Shown: positions 1,915-30,240 of the stretch, piece after piece | How positions within the stretch are numbered: position 1 is the stretch's first letter | How the letters are laid out: each line of letters starts with the position of its first letter | Assembly (NCBI GenBank): GCA_021413845.1 | Contig: JAIOPP010000127.1 | Coordinates: forward strand, 1 to 64,000 | Direction: 5' to 3' | Source of the DNA: Planctomycetia bacterium | GTDB lineage: Bacteria; Planctomycetota; Planctomycetia; Pirellulales; PNKZ01 | DNA length: 64,000 nucleotides | Translations under genes and position numbers: made by a program | The notes under the pieces: generated by a model | Databases searched by the model: none | Seen by the model: the letters and a program-made list of their open reading frames with translations, nothing else | What the model was told of the DNA's origin: nothing

Positions 1915-3996
1915 TCAGAAGCACGAGGCGAAGATCGCATGGGTGATATTCTTGTGGCGGGGTTGCTTCCGATCGAGCTTCTCTTGCTCCAGGGATTTCT
2001 TGATCGCTTCGTTGAAGTTCTTTTGAAAGTCTTCCGGATTCAGCGTGGTACCGGTGGCCGCTTGGCGCGAATATTCGCCCCCCTCCCACCGCAGATTGCG
2101 AATCTCGCGCGGGCCCTCCCATGCTTTACCGTCAATTTTGACTTTCCGGCCGTCTTTGACCATCGTGCCGCTGGGAGAAATGCTGAACTCGGTGACCGTC
2201 CGCCAATCGTCAGGTGGCGCCGTGATTTTGGGATCGGTCGCGACGAGGTCGCTGAGTTTCACTGATACGGTCTGCAAGGCTTTGGAGGCGTTTAGATTTC
2301 GGACGACCGTGTAGTCGACAGCAGGCCGGCCGGGCACCATGGCACCCCAGGCGTTGCAATTGAAGGTCAGCACGAGTTGGTTGTCGCTCCGGCAAGTGAC
2401 TTCGAAGTGCAGCGTGGCGCCATCGGGGCCCTGCCACTTGGGATCCTTCAGCTTGCGGGTCGTGGCATTCCACAGCGGCGGATGTCCCCAGTTCAAGAGA
2501 TACCAGTCGTGCCAACCGCGCGCGCCGTCGTCAATCAGCCGATCGGGCTTGTCCGTGGCCTTCACGCTGGCCGAGCGCAGTTGCGCGGGCCCCGCTGAGA
2601 CGACGCGCGAGCTGATGGCAAACGTGGCGCTGGATTCCTGCCCCGCCGGCCGCGGACTCGTCCGATAGGCTGCCGGTGTTTCATAGACGACGTTCGCAAA
2701 GGCGAAGAACGGCTGCTCAAGATTCATCACAGGGCATTCGGCCTGCCATTGCGTGCCGGATTTCACGCACTTCGCATCGCGCCAAAAGCGGGTGAGCGCA
2801 TGTGGATCGAGGGAGTAGTAAATGTCGACGCGCTGTACGGCCTGCGAATCATCCGGTGTGACGATGATTCGAGGCACGCCGGTGGTAGTCTTGAGTTCCA
2901 GCACCAGCTGCGGCGTCTGCGGCATCTTGAATGCTTGCCCCTTCAGGTGCTCTTCAAACCACAGAAGCTCGGTGATGGAGTGCTCATCGGAATGATGGTG
3001 ATTCAGGTGAGGCGAAATGCTGAATCGGACGCGGTCGTCGGGCACATTGCGCCAGTTCCAAGCCATGTTGTCGATATGCGCGTGAAAGTCATTCGTCGGC
3101 GAAAGCCATAGGATCGGACACGTTACCAGCGGGATGTAGGCGTTGTCGGAAATGCAAGCCAGTTCCATCTCCGTGCGCTGGGTTCGGCTTCCGCCGGGCA
3201 CCTTGGCTTCGCTCTCCGTTAAGTCGCCCGAACCTCCGCACGACGGCACGGCGGCTTTGATCCTTTTGTCGATTCCTGCGAGGTTCGTGGTGAGCTTGCC
3301 CCCCATGGAATGCCCGTGCGCTCCGATGCGCGTCGCATCCACTTCCGGCTGCTGTTGCAGGAACGTGATCGCGCGACGCCCCGCGATCAGCACGAGAAAC
3401 CAGTTGCTGTTGCGAGGCGACTCAACGGAATCGAGAGTGTATGCATCGGGAGTCGGAGACCCGGCGAAGTGGTTCGCCTTGTTGCGTTGCGGCGGATGCG
3501 TCGCGTCGAGCTTTCCCCAGTCGGTTTGCGGCCCGCTCCAAGTCTCTCGGCCAAGACTCATCTTGTTGCCGCCCCAATTGATGGAGATAGCGGCATAGCC
3601 GCATTTGGCATAGGTCACGACGCTGCTGAGCGAAGCCGACTGTCCGCCGCCATGCATCTCGACGAGTGCCGGAAGTTTCGTTCCGCCTTTCGGAAAAGCG
3701 TAGAACGCCGCGACCCTCGACGAAGCCCCCTTGAAGACTCCCACTTGATATCGAACGATTCGGCAGACGACGCCGTCCTGTTCCCACTCCTTGAGAATCT
3801 CGACATCCAGCGGAGTGGTCCGGTCGAATTCCTCAAAGCCGGCCCAGAGTTCCGTGAGGGTTCGCGGGATCACAGGGGAGCTAGCAAAGCCAAGCGTTGT
3901 CCCAGTGCTCGGAGACTCCGTGCTCGTGTCGGCAGCGTACAGGGTGGCCAACGGAGCCATCAGCAACGCAATGAGTAGCAAGAGGGTGTGTTTCAT
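1915..3996 (-). CDS. secreted alpha/beta hydrolase (acetyl xylan esterase-like) with C-terminal beta-sandwich
   Basis: 693 residues with a clear Sec signal peptide (positively charged start, Leu-rich core, cleavage near residue 21). The hydrolase domain spans about residues 45-370: an HGGG oxyanion motif at 115-118 and the nucleophile elbow GHSMGG at 228-233 with Ser230. The Asp and His of the triad probably lie around residues 300-340 (SPTNDFH and a His-rich stretch). The remaining ~300 residues look like beta-rich carbohydrate-binding or accessory domains. Dienelactone-hydrolase or acetyl xylan esterase-type activity on a polysaccharide ester is inferred from fold and from the neighbouring sulfatases. 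The gene is convergent with the DUF1501 gene, separated by 153 nt. Confidence 0.75.
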   Translation of the reverse strand: MKHTLLLLIALLMAPLATLYAADTSTESPSTGTTLGFASSPVIPRTLTELWAGFEEFDRTTPLDVEILKEWEQDGVVCRIVRYQVGVFKGASSRVAAFYAFPKGGTKLPALVEMHGGGQSASLSSVVTYAKCGYAAISINWGGNKMSLGRETWSGPQTDWGKLDATHPPQRNKANHFAGSPTPDAYTLDSVESPRNSNWFLVLIAGRRAITFLQQQPEVDATRIGAHGHSMGGKLTTNLAGIDKRIKAAVPSCGGSGDLTESEAKVPGGSRTQRTEMELACISDNAYIPLVTCPILWLSPTNDFHAHIDNMAWNWRNVPDDRVRFSISPHLNHHHSDEHSITELLWFEEHLKGQAFKMPQTPQLVLELKTTTGVPRIIVTPDDSQAVQRVDIYYSLDPHALTRFWRDAKCVKSGTQWQAECPVMNLEQPFFAFANVVYETPAAYRTSPRPAGQESSATFAISSRVVSAGPAQLRSASVKATDKPDRLIDDGARGWHDWYLLNWGHPPLWNATTRKLKDPKWQGPDGATLHFEVTCRSDNQLVLTFNCNAWGAMVPGRPAVDYTVVRNLNASKALQTVSVKLSDLVATDPKITAPPDDWRTVTEFSISPSGTMVKDGRKVKIDGKAWEGPREIRNLRWEGGEYSRQAATGTTLNPEDFQKNFNEAIKKSLEQEKLDRKQPRHKNITHAIFASCF

Positions 3997-4242
3997 CAGG
4001 TTATTTATGTCGGAGACAGTTGCAGCAAAGTGCCGATTCGAGTTCGGTTTGACTATTTTATGTTGAGTACATCGGTGGCGTGCTCGAGATTCCGCATCAA
4101 TCCTCGCGTCGATACACCTTCAGCACGTTTCGAATTGCTTCCACAGGCGGGTAACCGTCTGGGACAACCTCACGCTTCGCTCAACCTGTGTCGAATGAGG
4201 TTGCTTCAATGCAGATGCGTTCGTGCGCTGAATCTTGAATAT

Positions 4243-4485
4243 TTAGATCGGCGAAGGCAGCACGTTGTGGGCAAGCACGTTCATGATCGCGGAATGCGAT
4301 TCGGCGACGAGCGCGGGCGAAGCCGGAAGCTGCGTTGCGCCATCGCCGTAGTTCCAGTAGCTGGCACCGATCAGCATGCCGACGGCCGCCATGGCCACGA
4401 GCAACACGCCGTCGCGAGTTCTCCAGCGCCGCGCTTCGATGACCTTCGGTCGTTCTTGGCGCTTTGCTTTGTGCTTATGATTCAT
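4243..4485 (-). CDS. small single-TM hypothetical protein
   Basis: 80-residue open frame beginning MNHKHKAKRQERPK. It has a strongly basic N-terminus of about 25 residues, then one hydrophobic segment (about 28-45, GVLLVAMAAVGMLIGASYW) and a short non-cytoplasmic tail. It lies downstream of the sulfatase gene on the same strand, after a hairpin at 4578-4606, so it may be the last gene of that unit or an independent small gene. No family recognised. The basic leader plus one TM helix argues for a real membrane protein, but the length makes a chance frame possible in this GC-rich DNA. Confidence 0.4.
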   Translation of the reverse strand: MNHKHKAKRQERPKVIEARRWRTRDGVLLVAMAAVGMLIGASYWNYGDGATQLPASPALVAESHSAIMNVLAHNVLPSPI

Positions 4486-4577
4486 TCCGTCGGCCAAGAA
4501 TGCGGGTACAGGTGCAAACTTCGCATCAAGGTCTCGGATCGGCGGGCGAGCGAGAACGACCGCCCGGTCGTCCCGAG

Positions 4578-4606
4578 GCGAGCGTCCCACTCTTGGGGAC
4601 GCTCGC
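4578..4606. terminator. hairpin downstream of sulfatase gene
   Basis: A perfect 11-bp inverted repeat (4578-4588 with 4596-4606) around a 7-nt loop lies 14 nt beyond the sulfatase stop codon. No T-tract follows on either strand, so it may act as a transcript-end stabiliser or weak terminator rather than a canonical intrinsic terminator. Confidence 0.5.
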
Positions 4607-4619
4607 TCGGGACGCTCGT

Positions 4620-6386
<1,767 letters not shown>

Positions 6387-7033
6387 AGATGTTTTCCTTA
6401 GTTGCGAAATCTAGAAGAGCGGATTGAGTTAAGTTGCCGCAAGGGCGAGGAGCGGCGAAGCCTTTTTATAGCTATTAGTATGACTGAGGTCGCGGCGTAC
6501 GACTCTGGAATTCGCGGATGGATTGAGCGGCTGACGGCGAACGGCGTTCGACGTGATTGAAGAGGCTTAACAACGCGCTGGAGCCCGATCTCCTCGGAAG
6601 GAGCGAGCAACCGCGGATTCCGGGATTCTTTAACGCAAACCGCACACCATTCGGTGAATCTGCCTTTGGCAAACAGTCGGCGTGGACGCAGCGATGGATA
6701 CGTCGGTGGATCGCGAGCGACCCATTTTGTCGAGATTGCGGCTGAATTACCTACGGCACGAACCTTGCGCAGCGCGTTGAGCTCGCTGAGACGTTCCGCC
6801 CGTATCTAAGGTCAGCAGCCGAAGAATTTCACAGTCACCACCGAAGCGGTGATCGGTCGAAGCGCGCCGATTCGCACACAGAAGCGTGCAATATCGTTCG
6901 GCGCTGCAAGCGGATTTGCTCTCGCTCCGATTATGCCGCTCCGATATCTAAGCAAACGGCTCACCGGTCGATGCAACTTCGACCCCCAGAGCTCCGGCCC
7001 ATCCCACGCAGTTGCGGAGAACGGGCCGGAGCT
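6387..7033. other. divergent intergenic region with inverted repeat, no convincing gene
   Basis: This is the left part of the ~1 kb between the two divergent sulfatase genes. Short open frames occur on both strands but none has a ribosome binding site plus protein-like composition. At 6990-7000 and 7023-7033 there is a perfect 11-bp inverted repeat (AGCTCCGGCCC and its complement) around 22 nt, next to a truncated gene start at 7156. The rest may be degraded coding DNA and promoter for the 4620-6386 sulfatase. Confidence 0.4.
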
Positions 7034-7156
7034 TAGCGAACTTACCTGCCGATTAGCGGCGGAGTTGAGTTCGAGCTCCGGATTCACGGTCGCGCCGCGC
7101 GAGCCGTAGTTCGCTTCTCCGATCTTCTTCGTGAAACCGACGTTGAGTTTGAGCAT
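7034..7156 (-). pseudogene. truncated 5' end of a small conserved planctomycete gene
   Basis: A perfect AAGGAGA ribosome binding site 6-7 nt upstream introduces an ATG at 7156. The first ~35 codons read MLKLNVGFTKKIGEANYGSR and then a VNPELEL stretch. From memory this N-terminus matches a small hypothetical protein common in planctomycetes, but that was not checked by search. After about residue 35 the protein-like pattern stops and the frame runs into the 11-bp inverted repeat at 6990-7033, staying open without meaning to 6812. The likely reading is a gene broken by insertion of, or deletion up to, a small hairpin repeat. Confidence 0.5.
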
Positions 7157-7405
7157 GGGGATCTCCTTTGAAGTTGAAAATTGCTCGTCATCTGCATCGC
7201 CGGCGTCCTCGTGGTGACTAAGGCGACGCACGTGACGCAGAATCCGAAACCTGGCAGAGTCGTGGTCGGCCGAACGCGTGTCGGTCGGTGGTTACGAGTC
7301 CCAAACGATTGGCCGCGAATTTGAACTGCACGAGCGAAGGCATATCGAACCACCGATGCTATCGGTAGAATCGCGTCTTTCGCCGACGACTGCAGGGAGA
7401 AAACG

Positions 7406-19718: not shown

Positions 19719-19769
19719 GCGGTGCAGTGTGTCACGACATTCTGGACTTTTGTGCGCGAGTTCTCGCCA
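19719..19769 (+). repeat. left terminal inverted repeat of the IS relic
   Basis: Begins GCGGTGCAGTGTGTCACGAC and ends TTCTCGCCA. It pairs with 20656-20706 with five mismatches. Confidence 0.75.
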
Positions 19770-19912
19770 CCTGGCCCATATCCGTCCCGGCTTGGAATAC
19801 CTGAGCCGTGGTTTCTCAGCGAGTCCGGCGTTTTAGCGCCGCTTTTTCCCCGCTGTTCTCAAACCGCGCGTACTCCTGCCACGGATCGCCTCGCGTTTTC
19901 ACCTGTCCAAGC

Positions 19913-20583
19913 TCAGTTGAGGCTCACGGTCACGGGTTCACAGACGCTACAGGTCCGCTTCCGATTGGCCTCCACTCGTGCCTGACGTGCCAGTTGCCGA
20001 GCCGCTTCCAGTTCTCCAGGAATCTTGTCTCCCGTGCCGAAGTAGTACATTTCGTCCGGCGTCTGCCCGGGGAACGCGGAATGCGGGATTGTGGCGTTGT
20101 GCGCTTGTACATAAAACGCCACGAGCGTCTCGACCCTACGAACCGAATCTAGCGGGTTCAGGAACAGCCACTGGTGCTTGAGCACGCGCCACCAAGATTC
20201 GATCATCGAATTCGAGAACGTGATCTCGGTTTGGGCCAGGACTCGGCTCAGCAGGCCCGAGGCAATCAGCTCGTCGACGGCTCCGTTGAAGTTCTCGACG
20301 CCGCCATCGGCAACTAGCATCGGTTTATCGCCGCTGACACCCGCAGCAGCGCGATCAGTTTCTGAACGCGTCGGCGTAGCTGTAATACTTCCCGCTGCCA
20401 CTGAGTCCCGTCCAGGTTGAGGGCCTCGACGGTGACGACGGGGACGTCTGAATCCGTCAGCCAGCCACGTGCGGTCGAACGAGGTACGCCTCGTTGTAGG
20501 GCGCAACCGATGTCCCGCGTGGTGCGGACCAGATTCCGGAGACGGTGATCGTAACGGCGTTGCGTGCGAGTTGTGATGGCCAT
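19913..20583 (-). pseudogene. IS3/IS481-like (rve integrase core) transposase, internally deleted and frameshifted
   Basis: The N-terminal piece starts at ATG 20583 (MAITTRTQRRYDHRLRNLV, then a helix-turn-helix region and a QREVLQLRRRV coiled coil) and runs off at about 20335. The C-terminal piece, in another frame from about 20330 to 19913, begins LVADGGVENFNG and contains SNSMIESWWRVLKHQWL, HNATIPHSAF and TPDEMYYFGTGDKIP. These are the last Asp-to-Glu part of a DDE integrase core. The whole middle, including the first catalytic Asp region, is missing. It cannot be active. It sits inside the inverted-repeat pair. Confidence 0.85.
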
Positions 20584-20655
20584 CACTCGATCATGACCAA
20601 CCCCACCGGCCAAGCAACCGGGCTGATGTCAATTGCCGGTTCGGTTCGTCTAGAA

Positions 20656-20706
20656 TGGCGAGAACTCGCGCAGAAAACTCCAGAAGGTCGTGACACTCCG
20701 CACCGC
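20656..20706 (-). repeat. right terminal inverted repeat of the IS relic
   Basis: Reads, on the minus strand, GCGGTGCGGAGTGTCACGAC and ends TTCTCGCCA. It is the inverted partner of 19719-19769. Confidence 0.75.
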
Positions 20707-20962: not shown

Positions 20963-21946
20963 TCACCCGTTCGCCGTCCATGCGAAACCGCGGTCGCATT
21001 TCAGCCTGGCTCGCACGAGGCCAGCATTCGGTTGAAATGTTTCGATGACGATCGCCTTGATCTTCTTGGTCGAGTACTTCCGTTTGTCGCCGTAGGTGAT
21101 GTCGACTTTGCCGGTATTCAATCCCTTGATGTCCACGACATTCAACAAGCTTGTGGCCGCTCCCTCGGTGCCGACGAGTGTGGCGCGCAGAAACCCGGTG
21201 CGTCCCTTTACGCGGAGCATCCCGACCGTTTTCCATGCCGCGGTCAGATGGCCCAAGAGCCCCGCCATGCCGATGATCTTCTCGCGGCGGGCGTAGTCGC
21301 GATCCAGCTTGCTCTTCAAGTTGCGCGTCGTGCAGACGATCATCGAGTCGGTCGGGTCGACGAATTTGTCGATCTCCTTGGACGGACCGAAGCAGACAAC
21401 CGGGATCGTCGGGATCGTCGGGCCGAGGTTCGACTGCTCAGTGAGCTTGCCGACCGATTGCCACCAGGGAGCTCGGACCATCTGCTCGTGAAATTGACGG
21501 GCATTTCCGGCAAGCGCGAATGTCGGGTTGCGCGTCTGTTCGACTTTGCCGGCGCGGTGAATCGTGATTTGCTCGCGCGTCGGGTCCAGCACCTCAATCC
21601 GTCCGCTGTGCCGCTTGGCGTCGATCAAATACACGGCGGCATCGGTCAGGATAATCGCGTCCCATTCGCCGCGGCTGAACTCGCGCGGCGGCCAAACGCG
21701 TTGCCGAATCACACCTTTGACCTTCTTACCGAATGCCGAGGCGATTCTCAGCATCGAATCTTCGGTATCTAGACCTTTGCGATGCTGCGCACCCTCTTCA
21801 AAGGTCAAGTCGAGTACATCGCGCACGTCGTCGCCGAACGGCAATATCGCTGGCTCGACTCGGGTCGCCGCCGTCTGCTTCAGAACGGTCGGTTTATGAA
21901 CGGCCGCCGGGCGAACGATCGTCGGCTTACGGAGAGCGGATGCCAT
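20963..21946 (-). CDS. NERD (nuclease-related) domain protein
   Basis: 327 residues from the ATG at 21946. The open frame continues to 22378, but those upstream codons are Arg/Pro-rich and not protein-like. The N-terminal ~60 residues are a Thr/Val/Pro-rich linker. A NERD domain follows, with EEGAQHRKGLDTEDSML, then GEWDAIILTDAAVYLIDAKR, the D-x(n)-D/E-x-K pattern of the restriction-endonuclease-like fold, and an HSGRIEV strand. A further ~120 C-terminal residues (IIGMAGLLGHLTAAW and beta-rich) have no recognised family. NERD domains are predicted nucleases found in defence and DNA-processing contexts. The gene is divergent from the unknown cassette, 633 nt apart. Confidence 0.75.
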   Translation of the reverse strand: MASALRKPTIVRPAAVHKPTVLKQTAATRVEPAILPFGDDVRDVLDLTFEEGAQHRKGLDTEDSMLRIASAFGKKVKGVIRQRVWPPREFSRGEWDAIILTDAAVYLIDAKRHSGRIEVLDPTREQITIHRAGKVEQTRNPTFALAGNARQFHEQMVRAPWWQSVGKLTEQSNLGPTIPTIPVVCFGPSKEIDKFVDPTDSMIVCTTRNLKSKLDRDYARREKIIGMAGLLGHLTAAWKTVGMLRVKGRTGFLRATLVGTEGAATSLLNVVDIKGLNTGKVDITYGDKRKYSTKKIKAIVIETFQPNAGLVRARLKCDRGFAWTANG

Positions 21947-22579
21947 GAGTACTCGTTCCGGTAGCAAGGGCCTATGGACAGTCTCGATCGGATAACCATG
22001 GTGCTGAGCGGCGGCGACGCATCCGAGCTGAGAGCGCCATGGTTCCTCACCGTTGATCTGCAGGCCGGCCGAACCCCCTGAATCTTTGTTCCCAACCGCC
22101 GGCACCCTTCGCGCGCGGGGGCAGCGCGCTGGCGGCCGACATGCTCTTAGGCTTAGCGATGTCTGTGCCGCTCCTACACTCGCGATATCTTGGCGCGACG
22201 ATGATCGAATATCACACGCATCTGATCGCGAAAAACGGAAAGTCGTACTAAGTGTCCAATCGCAATTAGCACTGCCGGCATCGTCATAAGTCCTTTGAAA
22301 TATGGGGGCGCTCAGGAGCGCCACAGCAAGGGGTTGCCACGGTTCGCTTTTTTGATTCGGCGGCGGTAGCCGTGACAATTTCCACGAGCAATGCCGCCGG
22401 GCTGTGGTGCAACACGTAGCCGCGATGCACTTCGCTGCTCGCGAACGGATAGACCTTCATACGGACTCTCCGAAGACATTGCGTGGGATCGATCAAAGAA
22501 CCGACCGTCGATGCGGCGAAGTGGAAGGACCGGCTGTCGACATCCGAGTTCAAGAATCCAAGCGAGTGCTGAAAGTCTT
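21947..22579. other. divergent promoter region between NERD gene and cassette
   Basis: 633 nt separating two divergent genes. The open frames here are mostly low-confidence. One small minus-strand frame with a good ribosome binding site is listed separately (22284-22460). A short GC hairpin (GGCGCT/AGCGCC, 22307-22322) lies within it. Promoters for both flanking genes are expected here, but no confident -35/-10 pair was identified. Confidence 0.4.
22284..22460 (-). CDS. possible 58-residue hypothetical protein
   Basis: Starts at an ATG (22460) preceded by GGAG with 7-8 nt spacing. It encodes MKVYPFASSEVHRGYVLHHS, then a hydrophobic ALLVEIVTATA segment and a Cys-Cys pair near the C-terminus. 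No family recognised. Its position in the divergent gap could make it a small regulator or a chance frame. Confidence 0.25.
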   Translation of the reverse strand: MKVYPFASSEVHRGYVLHHSPAALLVEIVTATAAESKKRTVATPCCGAPERPHISKDL

Positions 22580-23809
22580 ATGAAGAAAAAACGAATGCCC
22601 AGGAGTGCTGCCAAAGACTCTGTTACTGTGCCCGTAATGAACGAGGTCGCCGAGCGGCAGACGGACACGATCGCAAGCAGACCAACGGCGGCACCGGTTC
22701 AGCAACGTCATCCGAACAATCAAGTCGATGGCGATCCTATCCCCAAGGCGTCCGTAACTGTGCTGAAGGTGCCGAAATCGAAAATTGCGAACGCCGCAAT
22801 CCCGAAGCAAGTTCAGCCAATCCAAGAGAACGCCTGTAATGAAGTGATCGCGCCGTCGTCTGAGTCGATGCATGCGATCGTACTTGAGGTCTTAAGTGAA
22901 CGGCACAATCGGACTGGTCAGAGCACCAGCTTGGCTGAGGTGCGTTCAGCGAAGAAACCGGATCGAAAAGGCCTCCGCGAGGCGGTCTCGATTCTGTTTC
23001 GGAAACCGATTGTCGACCTTACCGATCCCGTTCTCGATGAGATCATCGAGAAGATCGAAGCGGAAGCCGCTTCCGACGCCGAGAATGTAGCCGCGAATCT
23101 CATTCAGCTGGTCGCGCACCTGCGATCCCTGAACTGCACGACCCGGGACGCTATCGTCGACTATTTCGTCGCAGCTGATCAGGTGTTGCTGGAGCTTCAT
23201 GCGGAACTGCGGCATTCGCGCCCCAGTCCGACGCGCTTGCGGCAAATGGCGGCGCAGTATGCCCTGGATCCGAGACGCCCTATCGATGAACCTGCCCATC
23301 GGATCGACATTCGCTCGATGTACGACGGTTACGAGATCGCCATCGCTCCACCCGGTACTTCGAATTTGAAGTCGATTCCGCTTCCCGGAATCATCGTCAA
23401 CGACCCCTTTAAGTGTCTGTTGCTCGGCTTAATGTTATCCGGTCCTCCCCACTATACGGACCTCATGCAGCTGATCGAAATGCTTCTGGGGTACGTGCCG
23501 GCCGAAAACAAGGAGCTTGCTCAAAACCCAGTGCTGACACCTTCGACCGCCGTGCAAGTCGATGTCGAAGAATCTTCGATCGTCGTGTTCGGTCGCCACT
23601 ATGTGGTGGAGCTGCAGCAAGTTCGATTCATGCAGTTGCTGTTAAAGGCGCCGGGCGTATGGATATCGACTCGGAAATTTCACGCCGATCCATTATTCGA
23701 AGGTGTTCGCATGGATCGAATACGGGACACGCTTCCTTCCGTCTTGCTAGATCTTATTGAGAGCAAGGGTGGGAAGGGCTATCGGCTCATGGTCGAACGG
23801 TTGGAATAG
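22580..23809 (+). CDS. cassette gene 1: uncharacterised protein with C-terminal winged-helix-like end
   Basis: 409 residues from the ATG at 22580, where the protein-like part begins (MKKKRMPRSAAKDS); the frame is open further upstream but Arg-rich. The first ~130 residues are low in order (Pro, Gln, Ala, Ser). Residues ~130-250 are mostly helical (SILFRKPIVDLTDPVLDEII, VAHLRSLNCTTRDAIVDYF). Residues ~325-409 resemble an OmpR-type winged helix: VFGRHYVVELQQVRFMQLLL, then GVWISTRKF, RIRDTLPSVLLDLI and a wing KGGKGYRLMV. It may be the DNA-binding or regulatory member of the cassette. No receiver domain was seen. No close family known to me. Confidence 0.6.
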   Translation: MKKKRMPRSAAKDSVTVPVMNEVAERQTDTIASRPTAAPVQQRHPNNQVDGDPIPKASVTVLKVPKSKIANAAIPKQVQPIQENACNEVIAPSSESMHAIVLEVLSERHNRTGQSTSLAEVRSAKKPDRKGLREAVSILFRKPIVDLTDPVLDEIIEKIEAEAASDAENVAANLIQLVAHLRSLNCTTRDAIVDYFVAADQVLLELHAELRHSRPSPTRLRQMAAQYALDPRRPIDEPAHRIDIRSMYDGYEIAIAPPGTSNLKSIPLPGIIVNDPFKCLLLGLMLSGPPHYTDLMQLIEMLLGYVPAENKELAQNPVLTPSTAVQVDVEESSIVVFGRHYVVELQQVRFMQLLLKAPGVWISTRKFHADPLFEGVRMDRIRDTLPSVLLDLIESKGGKGYRLMVERLE

Positions 23810-23904
23810 CCGTTCCAAAATCTGTACGTGGGCGCGCGAGCGTTACATGCGCATGATTTGTGACGATCGATAGTCATCACACCTCATCCCCCAAGGATGC
23901 AGAA

Positions 23905-24297
23905 ATGGATAGCGACGAAGAGCCGCAACCGGCGGCTCGCCCTTACTTCGTTCCCGAAAACGTGGACTTCGAGGCCTTGCCCGAGTCCGTCAAAGTCGCT
24001 TTCCGAACGATCGTCGAGCCGGCCTACGCCGAGCTGGTGCTCGGGGCGCGTAACGCTTTGGAACGGAGTATGGGAGCGAGCTTCGTCTTCCTGCTCGCCG
24101 AAGAACTACTTAATCACTTCGAAATCGGGCGCGAGATGGACCTCGCACAGACGAACGCCGGTGTCGATCGAGAAAAGCGTGACAAGACCTTCGCTCAGTT
24201 CCTGAAATTGATCGGGGCGAAAAACTCGGCTTTGAATGCGTTGTTGCGGATCCGCAAGCTCCCGCCGCCGTTCCGATTCCCCGAGCCGCTGATCTAG
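23905..24297 (+). CDS. cassette gene 2: small helical hypothetical protein
   Basis: 130 residues. The ATG at 23905 is preferred over a GTG at 23860 because AAGGA lies 9 nt upstream. After an acidic N-terminus (DSDEEPQPAARPYF) the rest is predicted helical, including LPESVKVAFRTIVEPAYAEL, FVFLLAEELLNHFEIG and FAQFLKLIGAKNSALNALL, and ends in a basic, Pro-rich tail. No family recognised. Fifteen nucleotides separate it from the next gene, consistent with one transcript. Confidence 0.6.
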   Translation: MDSDEEPQPAARPYFVPENVDFEALPESVKVAFRTIVEPAYAELVLGARNALERSMGASFVFLLAEELLNHFEIGREMDLAQTNAGVDREKRDKTFAQFLKLIGAKNSALNALLRIRKLPPPFRFPEPLI

Positions 24298-24312
24298 TAA
24301 AGTTCAACGACA

Positions 24313-24762
24313 ATGGAAATCAGAAGATCTGTTGACCAACGCCGGACGAGGATCGAGCGCTTCCTCGCTGAACATCGTGACGCGCTAAGCCGACAAGGCG
24401 TCGTCGTCCCGACGTATCGGCATCGAGATGGTCGAAAGCTCGGTCCCTTCTTTCAGTTGCGCTGTCGGATCGAGGGATGCCAAATCGCGATCTATCTCGG
24501 GACTGACGAAGAGCTTATCCGTCTCGTGCGGGGGTACTTATCGCAATTGCAAAGGCAGCGGCTGGAGAGCCTCCAATTGGCGGAACTGCGCTGCGCACTC
24601 CGGCGACGAGCCCGACTTGCTCGGCAGAGTCTAGACGCCGAGCTTGAACAGATGGGACTTCGTCGTCAAGGAAACGAGATTCGGGGCTGGCGTTCTAAAA
24701 AACGGGTTGAGGCCGTAGCCTCACTCAACATGTCGTCGACGCGGGAAGTTCCTCAGCGCTAA
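24313..24762 (+). CDS. cassette gene 3: small basic protein with YLGTD motif (family A)
   Basis: 149 residues, very basic. A short N-terminal helix is followed by a beta segment (FFQLRCRIEGCQIAIYLGTD), a long Arg/Leu/Gln-rich helical hairpin (about 70-115) and an end motif (LRRQGNEIRGWR). The same order recurs in the gene at 27213: RQG near the start, strand plus YLGTD, helical hairpin, then a G-x-x-x-G-x-x-I-R end. The two are therefore diverged paralogues inside one cassette. The beta-hairpin plus coiled-coil layout and charge suggest nucleic-acid binding. It vaguely recalls DUF6788-type small proteins, but this is not verified. Confidence 0.6.
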   Translation: MEIRRSVDQRRTRIERFLAEHRDALSRQGVVVPTYRHRDGRKLGPFFQLRCRIEGCQIAIYLGTDEELIRLVRGYLSQLQRQRLESLQLAELRCALRRRARLARQSLDAELEQMGLRRQGNEIRGWRSKKRVEAVASLNMSSTREVPQR

Positions 24763-24783
24763 CGATTTACAAGGTGGGTCATA

Positions 24784-25884
24784 ATGCCGCTCAATCGAGA
24801 TGAATTCGTCCGTTACCAGCGTGGTATAAAAGGCCCATCATGGCGCGCTCGGATCGCGGCCCATACGAAGATCCGCGGCGGCACGCGGCAGGCCGAAGTC
24901 GCCGATGAATTGCTGATGGATTTCAGCAAGTACCTTCGGATCAAGGGAGGAGACGGCCCTGGCAACACCCGAGCTGCGAAACTCTTTCCCATCATCGCCG
25001 CTGCAGAGCGCTTGAACGAAGATCATGAGAAGACGGCCGTATTGAAGTTGATGGTTGCGGCCGACATGTCGCACGACGAGAAGCACGCCCGTAGCGACGT
25101 CGAGATCTCAATCTTGAAGACATGGGAATCGCTGTTCTTCGATGCTCGAGGCCAGCGCCAAGCCACCGGCTGGCTGGCACACAATATCATCGAACCAGAA
25201 CTGAAAGCCGGTAACCCGGAGTTGGCGTCGAAGTTGAAGGTGGCGCTGATGGCCGGGCCGATCGCCGTTCGCGGGATGCTGGACATGCAGAGCGGCGTTT
25301 GCCTAGACGAGGGTGATCGGCTGTTTCAGCGCAGGATCAAGTTGAACGAAAAGTTCGACGTTGCAGTGAACTTGCCGGTCGACTCCGAACGGTCTCAGTT
25401 GTTCTTCATGAAGTTGCACGTGAGCCTCATGGCGGCCGAGAAACGTCAGGCTTTAGCAGAACAGAAACTCGCGCAACGCTGCGCCGAAGCTCGAGACCGC
25501 GTTGAACTTGAGAAGCTGCGACTCGAGCAAGCTGCTGAGTTCCAGGCGGTTCGACGTAGCGAAAAGATGTCCAAAGCCGAACGGCGAGCGGTCGGCGGGG
25601 CTGCACGGCGGCAAGCAACGCAGGAGTTGAAACGCTACCAAGAACAGGCTCACTGGAAAGCGGTGCAGTGCCGGGTGGCGGAATCACCGTTAGCCCGGTT
25701 GCGCTGGAGTTCTCAGCCGGTTGTTGCATTTGAGGGAAGATCGCATGGTGCCGACGCCGACCCGACCATCGTGAGCATCACGGGGTACCAAGCGATGAAG
25801 GAAGTCATCGAAGACATGAACGAACTCGCCGAGAAGGAATTCGATAGCGAGCAAATGCACGAGCCCTTGCTCGTGGCCATCTAA
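24784..25884 (+). CDS. cassette gene 4: uncharacterised protein with coiled coil
   Basis: 366 residues; the ribosome binding site AAGGTGGG lies about 6 nt before the ATG. The N-terminal half is helical and globular: YQRGIKGPSWRARIAAHTKI, a Gly-rich IKGGDGPGNTRAAKLF turn, and the motif ISILKTWESLFFDARGQ. The middle (about 180-215) leads into a long charged coiled coil (about 215-300; AAEKRQALAEQKLAQR and EKLRLEQAAEFQAVRR). The C-terminus ends in an acidic helix. No catalytic motif was recognised. The W-E-x-L-F-F-D-x-R block is a distinctive handle for homology searches. Part of the co-directional cassette. Confidence 0.6.
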   Translation: MPLNRDEFVRYQRGIKGPSWRARIAAHTKIRGGTRQAEVADELLMDFSKYLRIKGGDGPGNTRAAKLFPIIAAAERLNEDHEKTAVLKLMVAADMSHDEKHARSDVEISILKTWESLFFDARGQRQATGWLAHNIIEPELKAGNPELASKLKVALMAGPIAVRGMLDMQSGVCLDEGDRLFQRRIKLNEKFDVAVNLPVDSERSQLFFMKLHVSLMAAEKRQALAEQKLAQRCAEARDRVELEKLRLEQAAEFQAVRRSEKMSKAERRAVGGAARRQATQELKRYQEQAHWKAVQCRVAESPLARLRWSSQPVVAFEGRSHGADADPTIVSITGYQAMKEVIEDMNELAEKEFDSEQMHEPLLVAI

Positions 25885-25935
25885 AAGAAAAGAAGTTCGA
25901 CCGGAGCAAGTGTTTGCCTTTGAAATCTCGCCAAA

Positions 25936-25990
25936 CGCAAGCCGTTGATTTGTCTCACGGGAGTATGACGTGCTCCCGCAACGGCTTGCG
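25936..25990 (+). other. nested hairpin in the intercistronic gap of the cassette
   Basis: An outer 12-bp perfect stem (25936-25947 with 25979-25990; CGCAAGCCGTTG and complement) encloses a 10-nt one-sided bulge and an inner 6-bp stem (25958-25963 with 25973-25978; CGGGAG/CTCCCG) with a 9-nt loop. It lies 51 nt after the stop of cassette gene 4 and ends 7 nt before the ribosome binding site of gene 5. It could be an attenuator, an mRNA-processing site or a protein-bound RNA element. It has no T-tract. Confidence 0.65.
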
Positions 25991-26010
25991 AGGCTATAAG
26001 GAATTCGACG

Positions 26011-27318
26011 ATGGAACGAAACAGCATCTACGAGACACTGCTGAAAGACGCAAAACCGTGCGTGCTCCCGGTGCCGTGGACGGAACTGCAGTGTCACTCG
26101 GCGTTCGTTCGCCTGCCGGAGGACTTATCGCGGACGATCAAACATCTAAAGGGAAAGTTCAAAGATGAAGCCCTCATCGGGGCCGGAGTTCTTGTTCAAA
26201 CGGCTCCAGGCGAAACGAGCGTCAATCCATTACTGATCGAGCATGGTCACTGTCTCTTGGCAACGGAGAAGGCGCTCGAAGGGGGTTGTCATCAGCTGGT
26301 CGCTGGCATGCAGGCGATCGGACGGCATCAGGGGAGCGTCGCTGCAGCGCTTGATGATCCGCGGATGGCGGAGATCCGTGAGAACGTCGATTCGCAAATA
26401 TTCGTCGCCTTTTCGCAGGCCGATTTGGCGGTTGCCTGGAGCATCGGTTTGCCGGCGATTCCGTCAACCGGCCTGGAGAATCTCGGCGGCAAAGCACTGG
26501 ATGTGATGTGTCAGGCTTTGAAGCTACGGCGATCGTCGGACGAATTCGACACCGACCGAGCCCCGAGTGGGCTCACGATGACGAGCTATCCGGTATTGAT
26601 CAACTGGTCTCTCGCTGAGCTCGCACCGAAGGATTATGCAAACGCCCGAGAAGTAGAACGTCACTTCTTGGGCCTGCATCGCCATCTCGGCGTCGACCTC
26701 AGGGGCGGCGCTATTTGGACGCCGACAGCCCAGGAAATTGAAACGATCAAGTTTCGAATCACGTTCGGGCAACCGAGCGATGTCTTGGATGCGATCGTCG
26801 ACAGCAGTGCGGCGAGCCCGACCTTCGGCGCCGCGTCGAAAGCCAGCGCGTGCCCGGAGCCGCGAGGTTACCTCGAGGCACTTCGGGAATGGACGGCATG
26901 CGCCGCGAGTGAAGACAATTCGCGCCGCAAAAGAGCATGGGACCGAGTACTACGCTTTCAGGAATCCGAACTGATTACGCCCTTGTTAGAGCAGGCTCAC
27001 AAGGAATCGGAGCTGCTGCCGCAGATGCTGCTAACGGCGCTGAGTGGAGTCAGTCGTATGTTTCACCCTCAGGCAACGCTCATGTCGGTAAAGTTTGCGA
27101 AGACCATTCGAGATAACGGCTTGAAGGCATCGACTCAGCTGCCTACCGAGGATTTTCGACAATTCGTCGCACTCGCGGACCATATGATCGCAATGGCGGA
27201 AGGAGTTCACTTATGCCGAGGCAAGAAGCCAAAGAATATCGCCAAGTTACTGAAGTCGATGAAGTTGCCGCCGACCTTGAAGCCCTCGGACTCGGCAGCG
27301 AAGAGATCGCGGCGCTGA
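26011..27318 (+). CDS. cassette gene 5: large uncharacterised protein
   Basis: 435 residues; AAGGA with 8-nt spacing supports the ATG at 26011. It opens with VPWTELQCHSAFVRLPEDL and continues with mixed alpha/beta segments: GHCLLATEKALEGGCHQLV, YPVLINWSLAELAPKDY and EVERHFLGLHRHLGVDLRGG. The last third is helical (LEQAHKESELLPQMLLTAL, FAKTIRDNGL) and ends in a very basic tail (GKKPKNIAKLLKSMKLPP). No signal peptide or TM segment, so it is cytoplasmic. No family recognised. Its last 106 nt overlap the start of the next gene in another frame, which indicates translational coupling. Confidence 0.6.
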   Translation: MERNSIYETLLKDAKPCVLPVPWTELQCHSAFVRLPEDLSRTIKHLKGKFKDEALIGAGVLVQTAPGETSVNPLLIEHGHCLLATEKALEGGCHQLVAGMQAIGRHQGSVAAALDDPRMAEIRENVDSQIFVAFSQADLAVAWSIGLPAIPSTGLENLGGKALDVMCQALKLRRSSDEFDTDRAPSGLTMTSYPVLINWSLAELAPKDYANAREVERHFLGLHRHLGVDLRGGAIWTPTAQEIETIKFRITFGQPSDVLDAIVDSSAASPTFGAASKASACPEPRGYLEALREWTACAASEDNSRRKRAWDRVLRFQESELITPLLEQAHKESELLPQMLLTALSGVSRMFHPQATLMSVKFAKTIRDNGLKASTQLPTEDFRQFVALADHMIAMAEGVHLCRGKKPKNIAKLLKSMKLPPTLKPSDSAAKRSRR

Positions 27319-27659
27319 GGCAGCAAGGATTCGTAACCGGCGAGGTACGGGTCGGCCGCGTGATCTACAAGCTTCGATTCCGTTTGCAGGGTCGGCAGCG
27401 AGTGCGGTACCTCGGTACTGACGCCGACAAAGCGGATTGCGTCGAGAGACTTATACAGACGCTGCAACGTGGTCGTCGCATCAAGAAGCAATTACGAGAC
27501 CTCAACCACGATTTGACCGAAAAGCTGGGAGAGACGAAACGACGCCTGGAACCGTTTTTGGATCGAGCTGGATTGAAATTTCACGGAATGGCAATTCGCA
27601 ACCCTCGAGGCCGCAACGCGACGATTGCGCAGCCGACCATCATGCAAAAGGAGATTTAG
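27213..27659 (+). CDS. cassette gene 6: small basic protein with YLGTD motif (family A, second copy)
   Basis: 148 residues; GGAAGGAG 7-8 nt upstream of the ATG makes this start convincing, although it lies inside the end of the previous gene. It shares the architecture of the 24313 gene: LRQQGF, the strand YKLRFRLQGRQRVRYLGTDA, an Arg/Lys/Leu-rich helical pair (about 75-115) and an end LKFHGMAIRNPRG. The paralogues are strongly diverged, so they probably form a heteromeric pair or act on different targets. No Cys or His cluster. Nucleic-acid binding is inferred from charge only. Confidence 0.6.
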   Translation: MPRQEAKEYRQVTEVDEVAADLEALGLGSEEIAALRQQGFVTGEVRVGRVIYKLRFRLQGRQRVRYLGTDADKADCVERLIQTLQRGRRIKKQLRDLNHDLTEKLGETKRRLEPFLDRAGLKFHGMAIRNPRGRNATIAQPTIMQKEI

Positions 27660-27662
27660 ATC

Positions 27663-28010
27663 ATGGAAGAAGAACAGCAGGTTACCGAAGCGACGCAAGC
27701 AGTTGAAAACTCTCCGGAATCGTCGGACTCGGCGGTGGCGCGCGAGCAACGCATTGCAGATTATGTGACGCAGTCTCTGGAGGTGGGCGATCCGTTCGAG
27801 GCCAACGTCGGCGTGGTCAACGCCGACCTCATGTTGCTCGCCCTTCGCTATCGGCAAGTTCTAGGTGACGCACTTGAGCAGCCGCCGGAAAACTTGGCTG
27901 AATTGGCCGAGATCATGCCGAGCGTCGACAGCTACGTCCGTTTGGTGAAGCAAGTTGATCGCATCTCGCAGTTGGCGATGAAGCTCAAAGCGGCGAATGC
28001 ATCGCCGTGA
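27663..28010 (+). CDS. cassette gene 7: small acidic hypothetical protein
   Basis: 115 residues, starting 3 nt after the previous stop with AAGGAG about 9 nt upstream. Its acidic, Glu/Ser-rich first 25 residues lead into helices (VAREQRIADYVTQSLEVGD, LMLLALRYRQVLGDALEQ, DSYVRLVKQVDRISQLAMK). It is acidic where its neighbour is basic, which would suit a partner or chaperone. It is the last gene of the cassette; an 18-bp repeat array follows. No family recognised. Confidence 0.55.
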   Translation: MEEEQQVTEATQAVENSPESSDSAVAREQRIADYVTQSLEVGDPFEANVGVVNADLMLLALRYRQVLGDALEQPPENLAELAEIMPSVDSYVRLVKQVDRISQLAMKLKAANASP

Positions 28011-28153
28011 TCCGCCGACGCTGTACCGCAAGACGACGGCTGAAGCGAAGATCTGAGATTTTGATACCCAGCTCCAGCGGGTGGATGCCAGCCGATTGCT
28101 GGCGAAGTCTGCTTGTGCTATCGTTCGAAACAAGCGGAGCGACTGCGCGCCAG

Positions 28154-28278
28154 GTGACAAAAACTTTGTCCCAAATCGATCCGGTGGCCAACCACTACGT
28201 CTCAACGTGGCCAACCACTTTGTCTTGAGTTGCTCTAAGTCGTTTCGCGTCGGTGCGGCCGTGGCCAAAAACTATGTC
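28154..28278 (+). repeat. four degenerate 18-bp direct repeats
   Basis: Copies at 28154-28171, 28184-28201, 28207-28224 and 28261-28278 share the consensus GTGGCCAAmmACTwyGTC. Starts are 30, 23 and 54 nt apart, irregular, so this is not a CRISPR array. Multiple short terminal repeats of this kind are known at ends of IS21-like elements and at integrase arm sites. They could also be operators. The gap 28011-28295 has no convincing gene. Confidence 0.6.
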
Positions 28279-28295
28279 TGCCTCCATTGCGAACG

Positions 28296-28850
28296 TTAGT
28301 TATTTTGCCGCCGTGCGATGCGAACACGAGCACCGCTTAAATTTAGGCGCATATCCAAAAGTCGATTGCTTACGCCGTAAACACGAGTCGCAGTCTCATT
28401 CGACATTTTCTGCTCAAGAATATGCAACGCTGCGGCGTCGGGCACCAACAAAGTTGGCCCGAGCCATTCCGCCTCCGCTTCTAAAATTGAATCAGGTACA
28501 AACGGTAGCGTCGGTGCGTGGCATAAGATGGCGTGTGCTAATTCATGAGCAAGATTAGCCGCTTGTCGCGCTTTCACGTGGCCGTCATTGTGAAAAACGA
28601 TACGCTTTCGGCCGTGCCTTCCCACAAAAATAGTCACGGCCGAAAATAGGTCGCGCCCTTTCCCTCTTAAGTAACGAACTCCCTCCGGCTCATATTTTTC
28701 TACGTCGCTCAGCTGCACTACCGGGATATCCAAGTGCTCAGCCACGCGCCAAGGGCAGATCGGCGCATGCGCAGCCAAATTCAGTTCGCGTCGTAACGCG
28801 ACGGCGTGTGAATTTGCTTCAGCTTTAAAACCTCGCCGCAATTTGATCAT
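28296..28850 (-). CDS. ImmA/IrrE family metallopeptidase
   Basis: 184 residues with the zinc-binding motif HELAH (residues 102-106) in LAHELAHAILCH and a downstream EAEAEWLGPTLLVP that supplies the usual third ligand and the helix of the IrrE N-terminal-like domain. Family members cleave or inactivate partner Xre-type repressors, as ImmA does ImmR in ICEBs1, or IrrE DdrO in Deinococcus. The partner here is the Xre gene immediately upstream: its stop and this start overlap (ATGA, 28847-28850). Low GC compared with the surrounding core genes suggests horizontal acquisition. Confidence 0.85.
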   Translation of the reverse strand: MIKLRRGFKAEANSHAVALRRELNLAAHAPICPWRVAEHLDIPVVQLSDVEKYEPEGVRYLRGKGRDLFSAVTIFVGRHGRKRIVFHNDGHVKARQAANLAHELAHAILCHAPTLPFVPDSILEAEAEWLGPTLLVPDAAALHILEQKMSNETATRVYGVSNRLLDMRLNLSGARVRIARRQNN

Positions 28851-29212
28851 TCGGATTTCTCGGAACTGAAGTGTTGATACATCGCTTTCAGCGTTGCCTC
28901 AATCGCTTTCTTTCCTTGCGGGGAGAGGTTTTTATCTCGTCGAAACTGGGCAGCGATATTGGCCACCGGTGAGAGAAGGCCGGGCTGATTTTTGTCCCCA
29001 TCGATGATGTATTCATCGGCGGACAACCCGGACCATTTTAGAAGTGCAGCTAGGCTATCCACGTCTGGCCGTCGGCCTTGCGCCATACGAGTTAACGTCG
29101 ACGCACTTACCTCGGACTCTTCGGCAACTTGTTTCCATGTTAGATCGCGCGATTGTCGCTGATCTTCTAGGGCTGCAAAGAATCCTTCCGCGTCGAAAAT
29201 CCCCTTAGGCAT
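28847..29212 (-). CDS. Xre-family HTH transcriptional regulator
   Basis: 121 residues from the ATG at 29212; an alternative start at 29230 adds six residues. A helix-turn-helix occupies about residues 24-70: TWKQVAEESEVSASTLTRMA, followed by DSLAALLKWSGLSADEYI. The C-terminus (ANIAAQFRRDKNLSPQGKKA) would be the region recognised by ImmA. The gene overlaps the ImmA gene by 4 nt. The upstream AT-rich region holds an array of AATT-centred sites, likely its own operators. The role is probably repression of itself and of the divergent 29416 gene. Confidence 0.8.
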   Translation of the reverse strand: MPKGIFDAEGFFAALEDQRQSRDLTWKQVAEESEVSASTLTRMAQGRRPDVDSLAALLKWSGLSADEYIIDGDKNQPGLLSPVANIAAQFRRDKNLSPQGKKAIEATLKAMYQHFSSEKSE

Positions 29213-29242
29213 AAAATTTCTATTTAGCAATCGATTTCACTA

Positions 29243-29337
29243 TTGCAATTCTGCGGCCTGTGCGCTACGATTGGAATTGCAGGATGGCAATTTAAGTCTA
29301 CATCGCAATTTTAATGCGTCAAATGGAATTTTAATGC
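29243..29337. promoter_or_regulatory. AATT-centred operator-like array between Xre gene and secreted-repeat gene
   Basis: Five similar sites occur in 95 nt: TTGCAATT (29243), TTGGAATTGC (29271), TGGCAATTTAAG (29285), TCGCAATTTTAATGCG (29303) and TGGAATTTTAATGC (29324). All have G(C/G)AATT, and the last two are near-identical. The region is AT-rich and lies between the divergent starts at 29212 and 29416, where an Xre repressor would bind. Confidence 0.55.
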
Positions 29338-29415
29338 AAAGGAGGGGGAATTGGTACGAACGAGTTCGCGTTAGGCATCAGTTTGTTTTCTTGGATTATT
29401 TAAAGGATAGACTCG

Positions 29416-29877
29416 ATGAAAAAACTACTTTTTAGTGTCTTTTTATTACTTGCGACTACGAGTGTCGCGTTGGCCACAACTGCGGACCAAGCAACGGTGA
29501 GCGGTGCTTTAGACGCACTTGAATTTGAATTTATCAAGCCGAGGGACGGAACTATCGGCGGCCCGCAAGAGTATAAGGCAACTCAAGGAACTATCGCCGC
29601 TCTTCGGCGAACTCAATTCTGGGTGAAGAGCGACGGTTCCATCACCTTCACGAAGCCTCCTGGCGTCGGAGCTGGCGGCGTCGCAGCGACGAAGGAACAA
29701 TCTTTGATTGGTGATGCATTACAGAAATTGAAGTTTAAGTACGTTCAGCCGACCAACGGTAAAGTCGGTGGCGATCAAGAATATGAGGTTACTCACGAGA
29801 CGATTCGTCACTTGAGGGGTAGTCGATTTTGGCTGCTCGGGGATGGCTCGATCTCATTTAAGCCACCTACCGAATAG
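29416..29877 (+). CDS. small secreted protein of two internal repeats
   Basis: 153 residues. A Sec signal peptide (MKKLLFSVFLLLATTSVALA) is followed by two copies of a ~50-residue unit, about 31-82 and 101-151, identical at 23 of 48 aligned positions. Shared features are an AL-x-x-L-x-F start, a G-x-x-GG-x-QEY centre, T-I-x-x-LR, the pair FW, and a DGSI-x-F end. A short Gly/Ala linker joins them. The layout suggests a duplicated peptidoglycan- or ligand-binding module, but no family was recognised. It is divergent from Xre/ImmA and ends in a strong terminator. Confidence 0.75.
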   Translation: MKKLLFSVFLLLATTSVALATTADQATVSGALDALEFEFIKPRDGTIGGPQEYKATQGTIAALRRTQFWVKSDGSITFTKPPGVGAGGVAATKEQSLIGDALQKLKFKYVQPTNGKVGGDQEYEVTHETIRHLRGSRFWLLGDGSISFKPPTE

Positions 29878-29905
29878 AGTTGGTAGGTCGTCGCTAACGA
29901 AAAAA

Positions 29906-29939
29906 GGGATGTGTTACTTCAAAGTAGCACATCCCTTTT
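29906..29939. terminator. intrinsic terminator of the secreted-repeat gene
   Basis: A 13-bp stem (29906-29918 with 29923-29935, one T-G wobble) with a 4-nt loop TCAA is flanked by an A-run before and TTTT after. It therefore works as a canonical Rho-independent terminator and could act on both strands. Confidence 0.9.
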
Positions 29940-30240
29940 CCTTTCGACGACGGTGTTATCTGTGCCATTCCGCGTCCTGCCACCCCGACATTTCGATGTG
30001 ATTGCGGTCGTGCGGCGGTGTGCCGAGCAAACTCGATCGGCCTGTGATGCGGCGGCAGAATCGAGTTGGGAAAGCAGCGGGCATGCTTTCCTCAGCGAAT
30101 GTCCCGATCTGCGGTTGATCGTCGTGGCCGGGGGTGCCATGATTCTTCTTTAGAATCGGCTCACCGCCGGGCCGGTTCTTCGGTGTGTTACGATACGGAA
30201 AATTCCTTGCACTCTGCTACGAGATAGGTCGGCGATCGCT
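29940..30240. other. intergenic region, no gene seen
   Basis: About 300 nt between the terminator and the yebC-like gene. Open frames on both strands lack start signals or protein-like composition. It probably carries the promoter of the following gene. Confidence 0.5.

Follow-up and report, generated by a model that had tools for sequence, protein, structure and literature searches.

Mobile ubiquitin-like operons of prokaryotes have already been described (Iyer, Burroughs & Aravind, 2006; PMC1779556). The cassette that neighbours relatives of the genes in this work likewise encodes a ubiquitin-like protein (UBL), an E1 (ThiF), and a JAB protein and likewise lies on mobile islands, and compared with the operons in the part of that account considered here it adds DUF1257, DUF2997, and an AAA ATPase. 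The operons in that same part of the account do not include the seven-gene module reported in this work. The second system to be compared is the transposon end. The ends of IS21, an element that is active when in tandem, contain direct repeats spaced by 23 bp and have CA as their terminus (PMC10122671). An array of direct repeats with fixed spacing was identified immediately 3' of the module, as described below.

The module is located in a window of 64,000 nucleotides (the whole stretch of DNA that was analysed) and consists of these genes:

22580-23809, + strand: g1, 409 aa, helical middle domain and predicted C-terminal OmpR/PhoB-type winged helix; optional regulator of the first slot
23905-24297, + strand: g2, 130 aa, acidic, helical; optional, pairs with g3
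24313-24762, + strand: g3, 149 aa, small, basic, paralogue of g6; remotely DUF6788-like
24784-25884, + strand: g4, 366 aa, putative N-terminal helix-turn-helix (sigma region 4/LuxR-like), helical C-terminal half; core
26011-27318, + strand: g5, 435 aa, N-terminal half suggestive of a DnaG/Toprim primase, helical C-terminal half; hallmark of the core
27213-27659, + strand: g6, 148 aa, small, basic, remotely DUF6788-like, its start overlapping g5 by 106 nt; core
27663-28010, + strand: g7, 115 aa, small, acidic, helical; core

All seven co-directional reading frames that the first-pass annotation had listed are present on the + strand at the starts it gave, with an alternative GTG start for g2 at 23860. 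The intergenic distances from g1 to g7 are 95, 15, 21, 126, -106, and 3 nt in order, in agreement with the several gaps below 25 nt (15, 21, and 3 nt) and the 106-nt overlap claimed earlier. The claim of strong ribosome binding sites holds for g2, g4, g5, g6, and g7, which have good Shine-Dalgarno sequences, whereas those of g1 and g3 are weak. The genes g1 to g4 have intact homologues in another genus (locus L017, contig G006:C221) with dN/dS of about 0.24-0.32 and are therefore real genes rather than chance reading frames; for g2 the values are 67% identity and dN/dS of about 0.24. Amino-acid identity to L017 is 49-67% for g1 to g4 and 32% for the comparable part of g5. By these substitution estimates, the genes comparable with the related genus are under purifying selection. 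The earlier statement that none of the proteins belongs to a nameable family was borne out in Pfam, NCBIfam, PHROGs, and PADLOC, where even matches of g1 to g7 near an E-value of 1 were just noise.

The taxonomic distribution of the module is narrow. The single-sequence search of 118 relatives identified g5 in at least five genomes and g4 in at least four. The g5 profile identified homologues in at least 11 of the 397 genomes of the order, these genome counts being lower bounds because few candidates were scored per genome at first look. The g4 profile is broader and matched 34 of the 397. The g5 profile detected only the window's own genome among 392 genomes across the whole phylum. All same-genus genomes searched lack g5, and the empty-site comparison showed that the flanks are rearranged in same-genus genomes. 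The gene order was read by profile scan of all fetched loci, which include 14 g5 loci, and is as follows:

Window: g1-g2-g3-g4-g5-g6-g7
L017: g1-g2-g3-g4-g5, then contig end
L018 and L040: g1-g4-g5-g6-g7
L019: g4-g5-g6
L043: repressor-g4-g5-g6-g7
L042: repressor-g5-g6-g7-g4
L044: g4-g5-g6-g7
L041: fused g2 and g3, then g4-g5 and contig end
L020: g4-g5-g7; another g6-g7 pair lies about 17 kb beyond them on that contig (L106)
L045-L047: g4 and g5 in a single reading frame, g6 and g7 in a single reading frame
L021: g5 alone, adjoining tyrosine recombinases

The g4 gene accompanies g5 in 13 of the 14 loci. The first slot is variable and is occupied by g1 or by an unrelated repressor-like gene that is common to L042 and L043. 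Judged by gene order, the core of the module is g4 to g7, with g1 and the g2-g3 pair being optional. The first-pass annotation had proposed that conserved order elsewhere would make the cassette a discrete system, and such order is exhibited by unrelated genomes. The outcomes it had named as contrary did not occur, as the homologues are not mainly single and no phage structural family was matched in PHROGs. In sequence comparison, the seven genes are a conserved and rare gene set that was found in one planctomycete order and is located in accessory DNA.

The AlphaFold2 model of g1 places a winged helix in the last 90 residues (N-terminal sheet, three helices, and C-terminal hairpin). All 50 of the 50 PDB fold matches listed are OmpR-family DNA-binding proteins, mostly with probability of 0.98-1.00; the best E-value is only 6e-3 and the list is uniform. 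The modelled C-terminus of g1 is of the OmpR/PhoB-type winged-helix fold, consistent with the winged-helix-like protein claimed earlier. The protein differs from the OmpR/PhoB family in that the 90-residue fold is joined to an unknown helical domain: no receiver (REC) domain was found, the protein is matchless in Pfam and NCBIfam, and its N-terminal part is helical in the model. Homologues of g1 were identified in L017, L018, and L040 by profile scan, and those of g2 in L017 (5e-55) and L041 (5e-17, in one reading frame with the g3 domain).

The two small basic proteins g3 and g6 had been claimed as paralogues, and one profile gathers both; the g3 of L017 also matches g6 with an E-value of 8.6e-6. 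The motif of g6 is 'KLRFR..GRQRVRYLGTD' followed by a long helix. The g3/g6 proteins have in common with DUF6788 (PF20586) the 'GPYYKL..G.....YLG' hairpin and a long helix, but only the L017 relative of g3, the best of the relatives, matches the Pfam model (E-value of 0.02, 15.5 bits), below the gathering cut-off of 27.2, and the remaining g3/g6 relatives have no match. Both proteins are thus remotely DUF6788-like at the sequence level. For g4, weak matches to helix-turn-helix families fall at one common place in several of 12 members, the best being Sigma70_r4_2 with an E-value of 0.0014, and these weak matches indicate a putative helix-turn-helix similar to sigma region 4 or LuxR. The similarity of g4 to 'Disks large' proteins in the PDB sequence search was rejected as a coiled-coil artefact.

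The AlphaFold2 model of g5 is fair (pLDDT of 79.9), and its Foldseek search gave nothing significant, with weak viral matches that include a DNA primase. Residues 48-187 approximately are colinear in hhalign with the DnaG core, namely the RNA-polymerase core and the first Toprim strands. The score against the DnaG profile is 33; none of 200 column-shuffles exceeded 21.8, and 16 unrelated families taken from these loci scored 19.8 or less. The island primase of L110 has a zinc-ribbon primase domain (E-value of 3e-5). Against a profile of DnaG together with this primase, the hhalign score of g5 is 38.2 (probability of 49%, single-comparison P of 2e-4), with 200 shuffles reaching no more than 23.2 and other families no more than 25.6; no remote match of g5 is better. 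A likeness of g5 to DnaG/Toprim primases, the L110 enzyme included, is probable but suggestive, not significant, and lies in the colinear core alignment. The g5 protein differs from these primases in that the zinc ribbon is absent, the C-terminal half is long and helical, no database match is significant, and the catalytic Toprim acids (Glu and DxD) are unconserved, their columns varying among the 14 members. It is probably catalytically degenerate or non-catalytic.

The noncoding array, which was lacking in the earlier description of the cassette, comprises these features:

28153-28283, + strand: four-repeat array of about 130 nt that ends in TATGTCnnCnnCCA
28153-28175, + strand: first site, consensus of the sites approximately TGnCAAnnTTTATGTC
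28184-28206, + strand: second site
28207-28229, + strand: third site
28261-28283, + strand: fourth site

The repeats share the orientation of the module genes. Arrays are located directly 3' of the module in the window, L019, L040, L042, and L043, which represent five genera and three families, and none follows the module in L018, L020, and L045-L047. In each of the five arrays the GTC-to-GTC distances are exactly 31, 23, and 54 nt, a pattern for which window shuffles gave an expectation of 0. Overall identity across the five genomes is only about 70%, and the similarity stops at the terminal bases given above. No further full array was found in about 2 Mb of loci examined, of which about 1.05 Mb is from the window's own genome, and the array has no match in the plasmid collection or Rfam, nor its pattern in viral contigs. 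The identical geometry at about 70% identity, together with the lack of a full copy elsewhere, argues that the module and the site evolve together. Since the association is kept across genera despite sequence drift, it is probable that the array is acted on by the module proteins, or that it and the module form one moving unit.

The sole other repeat cluster found in the own genome is in L190 (2358-4251, G000:C27), where a large serine recombinase gene is followed by three repeats with spacing of 22 and 21 and the same terminus as the array, adjoining the 3' end of an EF-P-like gene. This recombinase and its repeats may mark the edge of an integrative element. In L042, the right-end terminus is followed after a few bases by an inverted similar terminus at the contig end (12884-12964), which looks like a junction of abutted ends. 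The contig G331:C196 was considered as a circular element and rejected, as terminal overlap is absent.

The array, a single end-like site in each of five genomes, resembles the ends of IS21, Mu, and Tn7 in its several direct repeats with fixed spacing, one spacing being 23 bp, in its terminal CA, and, in L042 alone, in what looks like an inverted abutted end. A transposon of this type could have the array as its right end and be moved in trans by a transposase whose gene lies elsewhere, with the module as a passenger. The spacing of 31-23-54 (21-22 in L190) and the loss of similarity beyond ...CCA, set beside the IS21 ends described above, the abutted termini of L042, and the near-identical repeats that adjoin different genes in the window and L190 of one genome are consistent with that proposal. 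However, the array differs in having four sites at 31-23-54, the left end is missing in the window so that a two-ended transposon is not established, and a passenger would hardly be expected to preserve one end geometry alongside one gene set across five genera. The IstA/IstB, TnsABC, and MuA genes were not found at the module, no DDE transposase or AAA+ ATPase was found in it with Pfam, NCBIfam, PHROGs, and PADLOC, and no fetched locus has an IstA/IstB-like gene, the IstB-type motif scan of those loci returning one DnaA-like reading frame only. We consider mobilisation in trans unlikely, while taking it seriously.

The module is flanked in the window by these features:

19719-20706, strand not assigned: IS relic with transposase fragments, left neighbour
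20963-22378, - strand: NERD-domain gene, divergent neighbour
28296-28850, - strand: ImmA-type M78 peptidase
28847-29230, - strand: Xre repressor

The left flank described earlier holds for the IS relic, which has 51-nt inverted ends with 90% identity (19719-19769 and 20656-20706), and is borderline for the NERD protein, whose score of 20.7-23.7 bits straddles the cut-off of 22.1. On the right, both the Xre helix-turn-helix and the ImmA/M78 peptidase of the earlier description were confirmed; they form a regulatory pair of the ICE or prophage type, with the 3' end 13 nt from the array. The local G+C content drops to about 0.51 at 28000-30000, and this stretch includes a gene for a small secreted-looking protein (29416-29877) to the right of the pair.

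The module could also act in conflict, as an anti-phage or addiction system that variable islands carry as an accessory, with the array as an operator or an unrelated island boundary. The patchy distribution, the NERD and ImmA-Xre neighbours, and the greater divergence of g5 (32% identity) than of its operon neighbours (49-67%) are in line with such a system. Neighbours in other loci that look PIN-like (L017), nucleotidyltransferase-like (L018), and like an AbrB/Doc pair (L040) by eye point the same way, the Doc-like gene of L040 matching the candidate defence models PDC-S23. Against it, none of the seven proteins matched a PADLOC model of a known anti-phage defence system, no nuclease, NTPase, or toxin domain and no other effector-like catalytic or membrane domain was found in g1 to g7, and a regulatory array 3' of an operon would be odd. 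A conflict system appears improbable, and a defence role is unsupported. A prophage structural or replication module was likewise not indicated, as PHROGs gave no match, no viral contig matched g1 or g2, and no phage record matched g4; the plasmid collection has no homologue of g1 or g5.

The islands of the g4 family carry tyrosine integrases, excisionase-type helix-turn-helix proteins, Prim-Pol, and zinc-ribbon primase. Some of these islands also carry the ubiquitin-like cassette, which consists of DUF1257-like, DUF2997, AAA ATPase, UBL, cysteine-rich, JAB, and ThiF E1 genes, with only part of the set seen in some loci. It was identified at these places:

L042, 2005-8329
L020, 11611-16823
L018, 8115-9084
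L041, L102, L103, L104, L109, and L110
Own genome: G000:C32:27517 and G000:C96:61260

The DUF1257-like marker gene is present in 93 of the 397 genomes of the order with up to seven copies per genome; local alignment was used to find it because the Pfam DUF1257 model misses the planctomycete form. Within 20 kb of this marker lie 14 of 48 g4-like genes, compared with 0.53 expected. The cassette and the module are sometimes on the same strand in an apparent single transcription unit (L042, L041, and L020), and they are non-contiguous in the window, L040, L043, and L045-L046. It is very improbable that the module serves this conjugation cassette (UBL, E1, JAB, AAA, DUF1257, and DUF2997), for example as a regulator or substrate adaptor, for despite the shared islands, the occasional shared transcription unit, and the enrichment of g4-like genes near it, most module loci have no cassette nearby and the cassette is far commoner than the module (93 of 397 genomes versus at least 11 of 397).

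In five of five related islands, the g4-like gene is directly followed by the gene of a 'YR...YIG' protein of 268-323 aa (L102 8610-9578, L103 8852-9652, L104 14645-15457, L109 10706-11614, and L110 4284-5087). This protein has a short N-terminal motif that is g6-like by eye, and the L110 copy has no Pfam match. The ubiquitin-like island of L103 also has a reverse transcriptase gene that adjoins a possibly helicase-like gene (3820-6641), and a similar pair is located in L022 (8630-11927). On the - strand of the window, 6815-7291 encodes a truncated relative (E-value of 2.5e-6) of a family of the ubiquitin-like islands (L041 5686-6390), which suggests a remnant of an old island.

The fixed-geometry site and the accessory location suggest that the cassette is machinery or cargo of a mobile element and not a known defence system. 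Defence, DNA processing, and mobile-element maintenance had been offered together in the first-pass annotation. Maintenance fits best because of the islands with integrase, primase, and ubiquitin-like genes and the fixed-geometry cis array, and a role in DNA processing is conceivable should g5 be primase-like. Our tentative reading, to which we give somewhat less than an even chance, is that a class of planctomycete mobile elements has this cassette as its backbone operon for maintenance or mobility, and that the operon comes with a cis site of its own. According to this backbone reading, g1 or the unrelated repressor-like gene would sit in a regulatory slot before the g4 to g7 core. The g4 protein, through its helix-turn-helix, and the basic g6 and g3 proteins would bind the four downstream repeats, on which a nucleoprotein complex of fixed geometry would be built with g5 and g7. 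The g5 protein would be a primase-like scaffold whose catalysis is probably lost. At the end of the element, this complex would control strand transfer, replication, or segregation, with the array as a putative element end or maintenance site; the role given to each protein is likewise putative.

No integrase, transposase, or replication initiator was found in or beside the module of the window. A bolder version, which we regard as doubtful, is a self-sufficient new mobility or replication machinery in which an altered primase-like protein and DNA-binding partners work on a single four-site end with fixed geometry and operate without a known transposase, integrase, or replication initiator.

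The findings in this work extend the first-pass annotation by the array of fixed spacing and by the link of the g4 family to the ubiquitin-like cassette. Among planctomycete islands that are full of unnamed genes, one recurrent unit is now defined, its parts are named, and a probable cis site is assigned to it. The unit is also linked to islands with conjugation genes of the eukaryote-like, ubiquitin type. Should its proteins act on the array, the unit would amount to mobile-element machinery that lacks any recognised recombinase or replication initiator; should they not, the array would still be a marker for tracing the element.
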